Position numbers and translations under genes: made by a program. Below, in pieces: positions 1,571 through 9,733 of a stretch of DNA of 64,000 nt (its first letter is position 1; every line of letters begins with the position of its first letter). Location: the NCBI GenBank assembly GCA_036655895.1, contig JAVVPF010000002.1:1-64000 (forward strand), read 5' to 3'. The stretch comes from Cloacibacillus sp. Its GTDB lineage: Bacteria; Synergistota; Synergistia; Synergistales; Synergistaceae. The notes under the pieces were generated by a model. It was not told where the DNA came from. It did no database searches and saw only the letters and a list, made by a program, of their open reading frames with translations.

Positions 1571-1610
1571 AGCCGGCAAAGGCTTTTTAGTGAGCCTTTG
1601 CCGGCTTTAT
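1571..1610. terminator. Bidirectional rho-independent terminator
   Basis: A perfect 14-bp inverted repeat (AGCCGGCAAAGGCT and its complement) with an 8-nt loop lies between the converging iron transporter gene and the surface-protein operon. It can serve both strands. Confidence 0.8.
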
Positions 1611-1611
1611 G

Positions 1612-3999
1612 TTACCTCTTTTTACCTCGAAGCGCCGGAAGCAGGGCTAGGGCTACCAAAGCGAGCGCTCCGAAGCCTGTGTTACATCCGCTGGAGCTGC
1701 TAGAGCCGCTAGATCCGCTTGGCTTCGGTGCTTCTGTCGCTATCATTGCGGCTGGGTCCAGTATCGCCCGCTCTTCACTCATCAGGTCGAAATCCCCGTT
1801 GTCTTTGATGAAGAGCACGAGCCTGTATGTTCTATCCGCTTCAAATTTTCCAGTGAAGATATTATCGCTTGCGTCCTGCACTGTGAATGCGCCGTCGCCG
1901 AAGTCCGAGGCTTTTGCGGCGTATTTGAAGAATTTGCCGGAGGAGGAAGATATTATCTTCACGATTTGCAGGAGTTCTGGCGATTCCGCCTTGAACTCGC
2001 TGCCTTTAAGGTCAAAGGCTACGGCTACTACCGTTCCGGCTGTTGTGACGTCTTCACTTGTTATCGTGAAGATCGGCAACGGGCGAACGGCCGTGACTGG
2101 AGCAGTCAGTCCTTTATCCTTGAGCGCCTGTTCTGCCGCCGATTTTGCCGTGCTCGGGGAGGCCTGAAGAAGCTGCGTTTCCTCGTTGACTGTTAAATCC
2201 GCGGATGTGAGAGTACCGGGCTTTATGGCGGATAGCAGCATATTGACGGTCTCTTCTTTTTCTTTCTCGTCGGCAGGGTCAATATATGCTAGGCCCGGCT
2301 TGGCGGCGGTTATGCCCTCAGGCGTGCCGATAGGAAGAGTCGGCTTTACAGGAGCTTCTTTTGTGACGGATGGGCAGGAAAGCACTAGGGTGTATGTGTG
2401 CGTTGCTTCGTCGTAGGAGACTTTGCTTGCTGTAATGCCTGTGGCGCTTGTTTCGTCCCGCGAGAATATTTCGCCTTCGGTAGAGGCTGTGAGAACTGTG
2501 ACCGTTCCTCTGCCCGCCCAGTCGCCGGTGAGTTTAATGGTAAGCCCAGGCGTGAGTTCTATCTTCCCGAGTTTCACCTGTGTTCCGGGGGTGAGTGTGA
2601 TCACGTCAAAATTTTTAATTTCCGCCTGTGAAAAATCTGCTGATACGTTGTCAAAGACAAGATTGGAGTCGCCCAGTACGGAGTCGGTGTAGCCGTCTAT
2701 TTTATAATCTCCGTTTGTACCTTGGCCTGAGAGATGCCCTTTGAACGCGGCGTCATTGATGTCTTTAAATGTTATAAAGGCGTCGCCCTGCACTGTGGCA
2801 AGCGCGGCAGATTCGTTGCCTTTCCTGCCTCCGGCAAAAATCATAGCATCAGGCGATAGGGCGGCCAGCCCGTTGTTCCCGAGCAGCGTTATATTACTGT
2901 TGCCTTTAACGATGGATTCAGTGGCGGCTGTCTTTCCATTCCAGCTCATTCCGCCGCCAAAGATGTACTTGATATTTTTGCCACCGGTTACGGTGATGTT
3001 CGTGCTGCCGTTGACGTATCCTTTTCCGCCTTCGACTTCAATGTCATGTCCGCCCCACAGCCTGGCTCGACCGTTGTTTTGCCCCATTTCGGCATTAGAG
3101 ACGGTGATATTGGTGTCGCCCAGCACTGTCGCGGTGCCCTTAGTCCAGACCTCCGCGCCCGCGAAAACGCTGTCATCTACTAAGCCGTTTTTTAGTTCTA
3201 TGTTTGTTGACTTGACACTGAGGGTCGGGGCGCCGAGATTTAGCAGAGCGCCTGCCGCCCACATTTCCCTAACGGCCCCCTTGCCGTCCACGACAATACT
3301 TGCTGTCCCCTTAACGATGCCGCTGGCGGCACCGGTTTTTTGGATCATTGGTCCGGCCAGTAAGGCTGTGCCTCCTCCGACTTTCCAATCAGCGTTAAAT
3401 AATACGCGGCTGTCGCCTTCAACTACTATTGAACTAGCGGCGCTGTCGTTGTTGATCAAACCGGCCGCCGCCGCCTTAACGTAATAGACATCGTTCGTAG
3501 CTCCAAGAGAGCCACTGATGTTTAATAGAGTGTTACCGCGTACAGTCCCGCCTTCCGGCCCTCCCGCGAGCAGTAGTGTTTTTTGCCCCGAGCCGTTGGA
3601 CGCGTAGAGTTCTGAACCCGCCTCTGAGTTGAAATTAAGAGTCGAATTGCCAAGGGCGCTGTTCTGTCCGCCTCCGAGGAATTGAACGATGCCGTTTGTA
3701 TATAGTTTTGATGTTCCCCAGTTGATGCTCAGATTTGAATCGCCGGCTTCGTTACCTTGTGCGCCATAGATTTTAAAATTCTTTGCGTCAGGAGTGGCGG
3801 CGCTTCCAAGCGCGCCGGTTATGTTCAACGTGTTGGTTCCTGCTGTATTTGGTTTGTAGAGGCCGTTGTTCACAACATCTAGGAGGGCTAGATTTCCTCC
3901 ATTATCATAATTATTGTCGAGACTCCACGCGCAGCCCAGCATTGTAAATAGAGCGATGATGACGCCGATAAAAAAGTGTTTTCGTGGAATATGTTTCAT
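1612..3999 (-). CDS. Synergist-CTERM surface protein, beta-helix-like (second gene of operon)
   Basis: A 795-residue exported protein. It has an N-terminal signal peptide (FFIGVIIALFTMLGCAWS), then some 500 residues of short Gly/Asn/Thr-rich repeats with recurring GNSNITLLG and GxTNITV patterns, as in right-handed beta-helix adhesins. A C-terminal module (~560-760) follows, then a Ser/Gly linker and the tail SSSSSGCNTGFGALAL-LPALRGKKR. That tail (Ser-Gly-Cys, hydrophobic helix, basic end) matches the Synergist-CTERM sorting signal, so the protein is probably cleaved and anchored at the cell surface. The gene starts 6 nt after the stop of its paralogue upstream, with its Shine-Dalgarno inside that gene's end, so translation is probably coupled. 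The ligand is unknown. Confidence 0.8.
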   Translation of the reverse strand: MKHIPRKHFFIGVIIALFTMLGCAWSLDNNYDNGGNLALLDVVNNGLYKPNTAGTNTLNITGALGSAATPDAKNFKIYGAQGNEAGDSNLSINWGTSKLYTNGIVQFLGGGQNSALGNSTLNFNSEAGSELYASNGSGQKTLLLAGGPEGGTVRGNTLLNISGSLGATNDVYYVKAAAAGLINNDSAASSIVVEGDSRVLFNADWKVGGGTALLAGPMIQKTGAASGIVKGTASIVVDGKGAVREMWAAGALLNLGAPTLSVKSTNIELKNGLVDDSVFAGAEVWTKGTATVLGDTNITVSNAEMGQNNGRARLWGGHDIEVEGGKGYVNGSTNITVTGGKNIKYIFGGGMSWNGKTAATESIVKGNSNITLLGNNGLAALSPDAMIFAGGRKGNESAALATVQGDAFITFKDINDAAFKGHLSGQGTNGDYKIDGYTDSVLGDSNLVFDNVSADFSQAEIKNFDVITLTPGTQVKLGKIELTPGLTIKLTGDWAGRGTVTVLTASTEGEIFSRDETSATGITASKVSYDEATHTYTLVLSCPSVTKEAPVKPTLPIGTPEGITAAKPGLAYIDPADEKEKEETVNMLLSAIKPGTLTSADLTVNEETQLLQASPSTAKSAAEQALKDKGLTAPVTAVRPLPIFTITSEDVTTAGTVVAVAFDLKGSEFKAESPELLQIVKIISSSSGKFFKYAAKASDFGDGAFTVQDASDNIFTGKFEADRTYRLVLFIKDNGDFDLMSEERAILDPAAMIATEAPKPSGSSGSSSSSGCNTGFGALALVALALLPALRGKKR

Positions 4000-4005
4000 C
4001 TTATA

Positions 4006-6525
4006 TCACCAACCTTTTCTGTTTGTATTGCGTTTTACACGAAGCGTTGGAAGCAGGGCTAGGGCTGCCAAAGCGAGCGCTCCGAAGCCTGTGTTGCAGC
4101 CGCTTGAGCTGTTGTGCTGCGGCTGCTGTGTTTTTTCTGTCGTTATTATGGCCGACGGGTCTGTTATCTGGCCTTCTATACCGTCCAGGTCGAACTCTCC
4201 GCCGTCTTTGATGAATACGGTTACGTCGTACCGCGCGCCTTTTTCTATGGATTCCGCTATTACGCTTGTGCCGTGTGTGAAGATGGTGAAGCATTTATCG
4301 TCGAAGTCCGCGGCAGCGGCGGCGTATTTGAAGAAGGCGCTTTTGTTGGCTCCAAGATATTTCATGATTTTTACATCGGCGGGCACGCTTGCGCCAAGCT
4401 GGTCTCCCGTAAGGACGAACGAGGAGGCGGCTATTTTACCTTTTTCTACGGGGGCTTTGAAGACCGGTATTGGCAGAGTGGTTTTCAGCGTTTCGCCAGC
4501 TAAGATGATTTTTTCTGCGGCTTTTTTTGCCGTTTCTGTTTCAATGACGACTGTTCCAGCGGCGTCGATGATAAGTTCCGAGGCGGTGACGTTTGGCATG
4601 GCGGCCGCCACCTCTGTGATTTTTGCCGTTTTTTCGCTTTCGGAGGCGTCTTTAGCGACGTAAGAGATCTCCGCGACAGTGGGGCGTATCTCTTCTTTTG
4701 CGCCGTCTGGGATAATCGGCTTTACCGGAGCTATCTGCTCCGTCCCGGTGCAGGTGAGGATAAATTCTGTGCGAGCCTCGTTCCATCTTGCGGACGAGAG
4801 CCCCTTTGCTCCGCCGTATTCGATTTTAAGGCTCTCAGCCGGCGTAGGCTTCTCTGATTTGAATACGACGTATGTTCCTTTGTCTGTCCAGTCTCCGTTC
4901 AGCGTGAGCGTTATCGCGCCGTTGTTTGTGGAAGAGAGCGAGCCGGTCTCTATTTGTGACGAAGGGCCGGCCGTGATTGCGATCGCTGCGTTGTCGGCCG
5001 TTATTTTTTCGCCTTTTATGACGACTGTACCGGCTGTGATGGAGATTGAAGATTTATCGGCCGCAGCCACATCGCCGTTTAGCACGACGGACTTTCCCTC
5101 CGAGCCAAGCGTCAGTTTTCCGCCGTAGACGGCCGCCGCCGCAAGAGACTTGCTTGCTAAAATTTTGCTTTCGGATTCGTCCAGTGTTCCGGCTGCCGTT
5201 CCAGCCGCGGTTATGTTTACATTGCCAAGCAGCCGGACTTCGTCGTTGAGGTAAGGAGCGGTATGTCCCCCTCCCTCTTTGTAGGCTCCATTGTCGGACG
5301 CTACACCTATCGCCGCTTTTATGAAGTCTTTAACGGATATGGCGACGTCAGTATTTTTTGATACGTTTACGACGCCCCCGCAGTTTGTTCTGATGCCATA
5401 GCTGTCGCTGTAATCAGCCGTCGCCTTGGAAGTATCTGCCCCGCCTGTTACGCTGACGTTAAATTTTGGATTATTGACGGTAAGGCTTTGCTCCTCGCCG
5501 CAGTAAACACCCGCCGTACCGTTTGCGTTATTGGCGTCTCCGTTATATATGCCGGACCCTTCAACTATTATATTGAAATTACCTACTGGCTCCGCAACTG
5601 TCACACGATTGCCAAGCACTCCGACCGCATTTGTTTTGCCGATGCCGTCGGAAATTACGGAGCGGATGGTAATGTCCCCTCTATTGAATTTTACACTACC
5701 ATTGCCGCCTAGCCCCGTCGCGCCACTCTTGCCGGTTGTAAGGATCGTTGTTTTATCGCTGTTGAATTCGACGTAATCGTCGGGCGACGTGATACTGATG
5801 CTCTGCGCCGTATAGTTTCCTGTGTTTTGTGTGGTGAAGGATGTTTCCGTTGTGTTGAAAGAGACCTGTCCTATATTTTGTGTGACCAGAGCATTAAACC
5901 ACTGTGCGCCTGTGCTGCTACCGTTAATAAGTACCTCTGTGGCAGCTCCGTTGAACGTAATGGACGCTGCGTCGGCGTAAATGCCTTTGGGGCATCCTCC
6001 ATCTGTTCCAGCTGCGTTGATTTTAGTACTGCCGTTTAATGTTATTGACCCGTTGTTTCTTGCGTCTACACCAATAGCCAAGCCGTCCTTTCCTGATGTT
6101 GTGGCTGAGATTTGAGTGACGCCGTTTAACACGATAGCTCCCGAGGCGAGTTTTCTAATTGTGCGCGCCTGCGCTCCGTTTGTCCCCGTCGCGTTGTAAA
6201 CCGCGTCCGCTGTGATGTTTATGGCCCCTGTGCCGTTGTTGTTGACGGCGTATGCTCTGTCGGTGGATATTGCGACAGTGGAGTTGACATTCAGCGTCTT
6301 GCCGCTGGCGACGGTTATCGTGAGGTCGTCAGCTGTTTTGCTTCCGATGCCGTATAATTTTCTGTTGCCCTCAACATCATCGCTTGTCGCCGTGATGGTG
6401 GTGTCTTCCGTGTAGTGCTGGTTTGTGTTGACGGAGCCGCTTGCCGCCGCCCAGGCTATTCCCGCCGTTGCAAATAAGGTTATCATAATGGCTGAAAAAA
6501 TATGTTTTTCGGATATGTTTTTCAT
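4006..6525 (-). CDS. Synergist-CTERM surface protein, beta-helix-like (first gene, riboswitch-controlled)
   Basis: An 839-residue paralogue of the next gene. Signal peptide (IFSAIMITLFATAGIAWA), a ~530-residue passenger of beta-helix-like repeats rich in Asn, Thr and Gly, a C-terminal module (~590-790) similar to its neighbour (APVKP-I-P, FFKYAA-A-DF, FIKD-G-FDL), and the same SSSGCNTGFGALAL tail. After the usual Arg/Lys end it carries about eight extra residues (NTNRKGW), probably read-through toward the coupled downstream gene. Both proteins are likely adhesins or surface-layer components. Expression is expected to follow cyclic-di-GMP because the transcript begins with a c-di-GMP-I aptamer and attenuator. 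Confidence 0.8.
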   Translation of the reverse strand: MKNISEKHIFSAIMITLFATAGIAWAAASGSVNTNQHYTEDTTITATSDDVEGNRKLYGIGSKTADDLTITVASGKTLNVNSTVAISTDRAYAVNNNGTGAINITADAVYNATGTNGAQARTIRKLASGAIVLNGVTQISATTSGKDGLAIGVDARNNGSITLNGSTKINAAGTDGGCPKGIYADAASITFNGAATEVLINGSSTGAQWFNALVTQNIGQVSFNTTETSFTTQNTGNYTAQSISITSPDDYVEFNSDKTTILTTGKSGATGLGGNGSVKFNRGDITIRSVISDGIGKTNAVGVLGNRVTVAEPVGNFNIIVEGSGIYNGDANNANGTAGVYCGEEQSLTVNNPKFNVSVTGGADTSKATADYSDSYGIRTNCGGVVNVSKNTDVAISVKDFIKAAIGVASDNGAYKEGGGHTAPYLNDEVRLLGNVNITAAGTAAGTLDESESKILASKSLAAAAVYGGKLTLGSEGKSVVLNGDVAAADKSSISITAGTVVIKGEKITADNAAIAITAGPSSQIETGSLSSTNNGAITLTLNGDWTDKGTYVVFKSEKPTPAESLKIEYGGAKGLSSARWNEARTEFILTCTGTEQIAPVKPIIPDGAKEEIRPTVAEISYVAKDASESEKTAKITEVAAAMPNVTASELIIDAAGTVVIETETAKKAAEKIILAGETLKTTLPIPVFKAPVEKGKIAASSFVLTGDQLGASVPADVKIMKYLGANKSAFFKYAAAAADFDDKCFTIFTHGTSVIAESIEKGARYDVTVFIKDGGEFDLDGIEGQITDPSAIITTEKTQQPQHNSSSGCNTGFGALALAALALLPTLRVKRNTNRKGW

Positions 6526-6640
6526 TATATATCACTGAGCCTTCCTACTTTGGTGTTTCATGACGCCTGTTGTTTTATTTTGACGTTGGTGCGGCATGGG
6601 TGTAGTTTTTTGGCGCGCCTCCTTGTTCGCTCCCTCTGTA

Positions 6641-6682
6641 AAACAAATAAAGACCGAGGGCTTGGGGCAGCCCGCGGTCTTT
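6641..6682 (-). terminator. Attenuator terminator of the c-di-GMP riboswitch
   Basis: Read on the reverse strand, AAAGACCGCGGGCT pairs with AAGCCCTCGGTCTTT across a short loop and is followed by a U-rich run. It lies directly after the aptamer and ~115 nt before the first start codon, as expected for a transcription-terminating expression platform. Confidence 0.8.
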
Positions 6683-6687
6683 TACGA

Positions 6688-6776
6688 CTTTTTACGGTAA
6701 CTGGCTGCCATTCCGTATCGGGTCAGGCCCTGTAGCTTTGCGTACTCCGCCTTTCGGCGGGTTTGCCTTTGTACTT
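6688..6776 (-). ncRNA. Class I cyclic-di-GMP riboswitch (GEMM-I)
   Basis: The reverse strand reads AAAGGCAAACC, a GAAA tetraloop closed by CCGCC/GGCGG, then GTACGCAAAGC, ACAGGGCCTGA, and finally GGCAGCCAGTTACCG. These are the conserved blocks of the GEMM-I aptamer in order and spacing: GGCAAACC, GAAA tetraloop, ACGCAAAGCY, GGCCT and the GYAGCCxGGTTACC-like end. It sits between a promoter and an intrinsic terminator ahead of the two surface-protein genes. I cannot tell from sequence whether ligand binding turns the genes on or off. Confidence 0.9.
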
Positions 6777-6830
6777 TATTTATAATAACTAACAGCGCCA
6801 GTTGCGGCGCTGCTGGTTTGTTTCTATTGG

Positions 6831-6859
6831 AAGATAGCACCGATTGAGGCCCGTGTCAA
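6831..6859 (-). promoter_or_regulatory. Sigma-70-type promoter of the riboswitch / surface-protein operon
   Basis: TTGACA (6854-6859) and TATCTT (6831-6836) are separated by 17 nt on the reverse strand. Transcription would start about 6824, leaving a ~50-nt 5' segment with a 7-bp hairpin (CAGCGCC/GGCGCTG) before the aptamer. Confidence 0.65.
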
Positions 6860-6878
6860 CAAGCTGGATTTACTTCAC

Positions 6879-9484: not shown

Positions 9485-9733
9485 ATGATGGAAGTTAAAG
9501 TTTATTCGACGACTACCTGACCGTGGTGCACAAAGGTAAAGGATTACCTTACATCTCTTGGAGTACAGTTTTCCGTCGTCGACGTGGCCGCAAGCAAAGA
9601 GGAAGCTATGCTTTTGGTGAAAAAGACAAAGCAGATGGGAGTGCCCGTGACGCAGATCGGCGAAAAATATATCGTGGGGTATGCCCCTACGGAGATCGAA
9701 ACGGCGTTGAAAGAGGCGGCTCTGTTAAAGTAA
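9485..9733 (+). CDS. Selenocysteine-containing glutaredoxin-like protein (YruB/NrdH type), UGA recoded
   Basis: Reading from the ATG after a CAGAAGGAG Shine-Dalgarno gives an 82-residue glutaredoxin fold protein, M-M-E-V-K-V-Y-S-T-T-T-U-P-W-C, where codon 12 is TGA (9518-9520). The UGA stands exactly at the first Cys of the redox CPWC motif, and the frame stays open to a TAA. The later GVPVTQIG (cis-Pro) and IVGYAP are glutaredoxin hallmarks. A hairpin begins 12 nt after the UGA (see SECIS entry). Standard gene callers would miss the gene or truncate it. It is probably a cytoplasmic thiol/selenol redox protein with unknown partner. It has its own promoter and terminator. Confidence 0.88.
9533..9550 (+). 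promoter_or_regulatory. Bacterial SECIS hairpin of the glutaredoxin selenoprotein
   Basis: AAGGTAA and TTACCTT form a perfect 7-bp stem closing an AGGA loop, starting 12 nt after the UGA. A short hairpin with G in a small apical loop, about 20 nt from the UGA, is the standard form recognised by SelB in bacteria. Confidence 0.75.

Follow-up and report, generated by a model that had tools for sequence, protein, structure and literature searches.

The window analysed here, a stretch of 64,000 nucleotides from a Cloacibacillus sp. contig, carries on its minus strand a c-di-GMP-I (GEMM-I) riboswitch that is predicted to govern transcription termination ahead of two genes encoding MrtS-type (Synerg-CTERM) surface proteins, most probably as an OFF switch. 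The aptamer, its ligand-selecting base, the separate terminator, the operon, the sorting signals, the MrtS gene and the diguanylate cyclase genes were established computationally. The features are, in order of transcription:

6831-6859, minus strand: candidate promoter, TTGACA-17-TATCTT with TG before the -10 element (consensus scan, 10/12; consensus match alone)
6791-6814, minus strand: hairpin AGCAGCGCC...GGCGCTGTT with a 10-bp stem, between the putative transcription start and the aptamer
6693-6777, minus strand: c-di-GMP-I (GEMM-I) riboswitch aptamer (RF01051, 65.3 bits, full length)
6767, minus strand: equivalent of G20 (model column 11; aptamer position 11 is G)
6703-6709, minus strand: strand A, GGCAGCC, the 3' strand of aptamer helix P3 and proposed half of an antiterminator, exact complement of 6672-6666
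6649-6682, minus strand: intrinsic terminator hairpin (-21.9 kcal/mol), with a T-rich tract to about 6641
6666-6672, minus strand: strand T, GGCUGCC, comprising the loop and the top of the terminator 5' arm, which would form the antiterminator together with strand A
4006-6525, minus strand: gene 1 (839 aa), with a signal peptide, a predicted beta-helix (residues 27-330) and a Synerg-CTERM tail
4030-4110, minus strand: Synerg-CTERM sorting signal of gene 1 (SSSGCNTGFGALALAALALLPTLRVKR; TIGR04564, 27.6 bits)
1612-3999, minus strand: gene 2 (795 aa), a paralogue of gene 1 over the last 300 aa (32% identity)
1618-1698, minus strand: Synerg-CTERM sorting signal of gene 2 (TIGR04564, 25.6 bits)
1571-1606, minus strand: terminator-like hairpin closing the two-gene operon (14-bp stem)

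A preliminary description had reported a complete GEMM-I aptamer and proposed its covariance-model score as a check, and both points were confirmed: against 4227 Rfam families the 64-kb window gave a tRNA and the c-di-GMP-I aptamer and nothing else, the aptamer alignment spanning model positions 1-87 of 87 (E 1.6e-10) with a score well above the RF01051 gathering cut-off of 35 bits. By way of clarification, the feature lies on the minus strand. The probability that the aptamer is a chance match or an artefact is negligible, given this E-value, the presence of every structural part and five further copies above the cut-off, six in all, in the window's genome, a 99% complete assembly of 2.9 Mb in 160 contigs; no point in favour of such a reading was found. 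The same genome contains 30 hits to GGDEF and 11 to EAL.

As for the ligand, aptamer position 11 lies immediately before the first G-C pair of helix P2 and is presumably G20, a placement that follows the Vc2 structure. The base at position 20 sets the ligand, G selecting c-di-GMP and A selecting cGAMP (PMC6456294). Sensing of 3',3'-cGAMP (GEMM-Ib) in place of c-di-GMP is very improbable here and was rejected on the G found at this position, where cGAMP switches are expected to have A; the close likeness of the aptamers did lead to cGAMP switches being first taken for c-di-GMP switches (PMC9262584). Across the phylum, 75 of the 78 aptamers scoring at least 50 bits have G at position 20 and three have A. 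All three A20 aptamers, which bear the cGAMP-sensing GEMM-Ib signature, come from a single family, f8 (G122:C4:234426-234511, G122:C4:227961-228047 and G123:C243:647-782; L086, L121).

The terminator claimed earlier to follow the aptamer was verified as the hairpin at 6682-6649, which reads AAAGACCGCGGGCT-GCCCCA-AGCCCTCGGTCTTT, begins 10 nt past the aptamer end, contains no aptamer bases and is able to form alongside the aptamer. The next 120 nt lead to the start codon of the first of two co-directional ORFs, which are separated by a gap of 6 nt. Upstream of the riboswitch, same-strand genes encode two subunits of a GltA/PRK06222-type oxidoreductase and are followed by a hairpin and T run at about 6917-6880, which suggests that the riboswitch operon is transcribed as a unit of its own. 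The proposal of a two-gene Synergist-CTERM operon behind GEMM-I is supported for a riboswitch with its own promoter-like site and terminator, and the pairing recurs in related genomes. A glucose-6-phosphate isomerase-like neighbour has its nearest named relative in Ca. Caccocola faecipullorum (Synergistaceae, 72%).

Both proteins exceed the curated cut-off for Synergist_CTERM (TIGR04564, 22.5 bits), and the Synerg-CTERM tail has the layout of a Cys motif, a transmembrane stretch and a basic end. The sole Rce1-like protease found in the window's genome is MrtS (NF040589, 225 bits against a cut-off of 130), a protease that NCBIfam names after the Synerg-CTERM system. The term sortable, used in the preliminary description, is borne out, but the route would run through the intramembrane protease MrtS and not through a sortase. 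In Myxococcus, MrtX cuts the tail, and its substrate depends on it for anchoring at the surface (PMC11980579); the surface-sorting route proposed here follows from that analogy: the exported proteins would have their Cys-containing tails modified and cut by MrtS and would be retained at the cell surface. MYXO-CTERM/MrtX and the system described here share a Cys-containing tripartite tail and a CPBP-family intramembrane protease, whereas processing is proven for the myxosortase MrtX (PMC11980579) and predicted for Synerg-CTERM. The MrtS gene (L142, 1279-1812, plus strand) directly follows a gene resembling a Fur-family metal regulator.

The designation of these proteins as adhesins is unproven, as neither has a Pfam domain at cut-off and no significant sequence or fold match was obtained for protein 1, relatives of which were also not found in a search of the genome contig collection. 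The beta-helix that had been suggested can plausibly be assigned to part of protein 1, the model of residues 27-330 being a run of short strands with about three per turn (pLDDT 71, pTM 0.75); the model of the full-length protein was poor (pLDDT 44). Searched against the PDB, the fragment matched mostly beta-solenoids, none of them significantly (best E 0.25). The C-terminal domain of protein 1 weakly resembles choice-of-anchor U (choice_anch_U, 21.5 bits, below the cut-off of 32).

Control of the surface genes by c-di-GMP had been proposed with no sign attached to it, and the anatomy of the leader points to repression. We infer an OFF switch, by which c-di-GMP shuts the surface-protein genes off, from a terminator that stands apart from the aptamer and has a 5' arm complementary to the aptamer 3' strand, and on these sequence features consider it likely, although in the usual picture c-di-GMP does the opposite and turns adhesins on. 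At low c-di-GMP, the aptamer segment GGCAGCC would pair with GGCUGCC in the terminator 5' arm, allowing read-through into the genes, and at high c-di-GMP the aptamer would be locked, the terminator would form and the genes would be silent.

The complementarity of strand A and strand T amounts to 7 bp in the window. With shuffled arms as the control, pairing of the aptamer's 3'-terminal 24 nt with the terminator 5' arm (-17.2 kcal/mol) was significant (p 0.0045), the 7-bp match against the whole aptamer was not (p 0.12), and the terminator 3' arm had no comparable affinity for the aptamer 3' strand. In the C31 leader, whose terminator is visibly homologous to that of the window, the equivalent pairing reaches 10 bp (p 0.001), and two leaders of genome G137 retain 6 bp (ACAGCC:GGCUGU, with A-U replacing G-C), alone not significant at p of about 0.09-0.11. 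When aptamers and terminators were swapped among 44 leaders across the phylum, own pairs were no better than swapped ones (p 0.24), so that covariation gives no proof of OFF logic, and because the aptamers are very alike we read this negative result as neutral.

Folding energies were likewise considered. In a transcript ending after strand T, with no ligand, the antiterminator (-51.7 kcal/mol) is more stable than the aptamer fold (-45.2 kcal/mol), and a third fold, in which the aptamer is disrupted differently, slightly exceeds the antiterminator in stability (-54.6 kcal/mol). By our own estimate, a ligand contribution of at least 10 kcal/mol would flip the balance between antiterminator and aptamer. 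The most stable fold of the entire leader contains the terminator but no intact aptamer; with this fold and the one at -54.6 kcal/mol, folding energies alone do not decide the sign. The full-leader fold, with its terminator and misfolded aptamer, would also agree with a leader that binds c-di-GMP but switches weakly or no longer at all, with a constitutive terminator or with control exerted at the promoter, in translation or in the 120-nt stretch; a precedent exists in C. difficile, where one class I riboswitch is overruled by promoter effects (PMC6200980). We regard this as improbable, since the homologous C31 leader keeps the aptamer, the spacing and the strand complementarity, and GEMM-I is used repeatedly ahead of the same protein class.

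The preferred OFF arrangement resembles that of Cd1 of Clostridioides difficile, a proven OFF switch of the flagellar operon, in which the terminator is compatible with the aptamer and the antiterminator combines an aptamer strand with the terminator 5' arm (PMC9262584). The window has the same aptamer family and likewise a terminator separate from the aptamer, but the strand A/strand T type of antiterminator that was shown for Cd1 is here a prediction of 7 bp, as is the switching itself, and the riboswitch leads Synerg-CTERM surface-protein genes in a member of the Synergistaceae. In the pilM ON switch, on the other hand, the aptamer strand itself belongs to the terminator (PMC9262584).

The pilM layout was found elsewhere in the same genome, where two serpin genes on contig C62 (PF00079, 323 and 96 bits) each have a GEMM-I aptamer in front; serpins also lie behind GEMM-I in genomes G138 and G167. 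Each of the five testable serpin leaders shows 15-18 bp of pairing between the aptamer 3' strand and the arm that precedes the U run (p 0.0002-0.011, at -21 to -28 kcal/mol), and the paired bases show compensating changes from one genome to another (UGACA:UGUCA against CGACA:UGUCG). All five leaders therefore have a terminator that uses the aptamer 3' strand, as in the pilM switch of Geobacter, and the window leader does not. Unlike pilM, a GEMM-Ib switch with cGAMP as its ligand, the serpin leaders carry G20, which indicates c-di-GMP; given their pilM layout, c-di-GMP should turn the serpins on.

These ON-type leaders, present in this genome and in two relatives, and the induction of several c-di-GMP-controlled adhesins elsewhere would suit an ON switch in the window too, with the ligand blocking termination and the surface proteins being made at high c-di-GMP, as in the conventional view of adhesins. 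Such a sign is nevertheless unlikely for the window leader, whose terminator is complete without aptamer bases and whose aptamer has affinity for the 5' arm of the terminator and not for its 3' arm. With the OFF reading of the window leader, both signs apparently occur on one aptamer class within one genome. It is conceivable, at slightly less than even confidence, that some Synergistaceae combine class I OFF switches for Synerg-CTERM beta-helix surface proteins with class I ON switches for secreted serpins, such that a rise in c-di-GMP would swap part of the coat for protease inhibitors.

The two leaders on contig C62 are near-identical (L008, 659-4991, minus strand), and each serpin gene is followed by one for a secreted protein with no match to a Pfam or NCBIfam family; a C10-protease identity suspected by eye for the gene after the serpin was unsupported by both collections.

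The first gene behind every GEMM-I site of 188 Synergistota genomes was read from the DNA. GEMM-I occurs in 23 of these genomes (84 sites, including a few weak or partial matches) and Synerg-CTERM proteins in 140. In family scans, the 73 GEMM-led genes included 11 Synerg-CTERM proteins (E<=0.001), six serpins, six to eight chemoreceptor-type sensors, seven C45-type acyltransferases, three GGDEF proteins and two pilus-type T2SSF proteins; the seven acyltransferase assignments are matches to C45/acyltransferase models. In the window's own family (f1), six of 18 GEMM-led genes pass the Synerg-CTERM cut-off (the window, C31, two in G137 and one each in G138 and G167), compared with about 1% of genes (some 111 in about 11,700, the total being our own estimate from genome size), an enrichment with a binomial probability of 1e-8, or 1e-7 with neighbouring duplicates collapsed. 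In addition, the C8 leading gene scores below the threshold but shows a Synerg-CTERM tail on visual inspection, and the C27 leading gene runs off its contig. Two further GEMM-led genes pass the cut-off in family f8, where several fall just below it. These counts indicate that the association between GEMM-I and Synerg-CTERM is real but confined to two families; attributing it to the phylum, as in the preliminary description, was too broad.

Several other GEMM-I loci were noted in the survey. At L009 (6529-13338, plus strand), the GEMM-I-led gene encodes a protein of 1380 aa whose tail is Synerg-CTERM-like, and a PAS-GGDEF diguanylate cyclase gene follows 238 nt further on the same strand, a possible c-di-GMP feedback loop. 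Partial GEMM-I copies at 3033632 and 3032170 on contig C1 of G138 (L122), near a duplicated Synerg-CTERM-type gene, suggest duplication and decay of riboswitch-led surface genes. Tandem GEMM-I sites, about 60-120 nt apart, precede similar secreted-type genes in families f2 and f10 (L067, L070, L071, L073, L074, L084 and L088).

A close regulatory parallel is the c-di-GMP regulon of C. difficile, in which class I riboswitches are OFF switches for flagella, a putative calcium-binding adhesin and the protease ZmpI, and class II riboswitches are ON switches (PMC6200980). In both cases a single second messenger acts through several riboswitches on surface proteins and protease-related genes (PMC6200980), but here class I aptamers apparently account for both signs, and a serpin, from a family of protease inhibitors, takes the place of the protease. 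In abstract and term searches of open-licence papers, no link of c-di-GMP riboswitches to Synergistota surface proteins or serpins was found; the riboswitch class is ordinary and well known, and its target kind, the Synerg-CTERM surface proteins, is apparently unreported. The value of the finding lies in the regulon, where GEMM-I recurs ahead of genes for MrtS-sorted surface proteins and the serpins are apparently wired the opposite way. If the polarity holds, it would provide a directly testable c-di-GMP regulon for a poorly studied phylum, join GEMM-I riboswitches and myxosortase-type surface sorting, until now separate stories, and place both polarities of one aptamer class within one genome.

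Elsewhere in the window, the first redox position of a glutaredoxin-like ORF (9485-9733, plus strand) is an in-frame TGA codon (MMEVKVYSTTT-U-PWCTKVK...), which makes the ORF a candidate selenoprotein missed by standard ORF calling.
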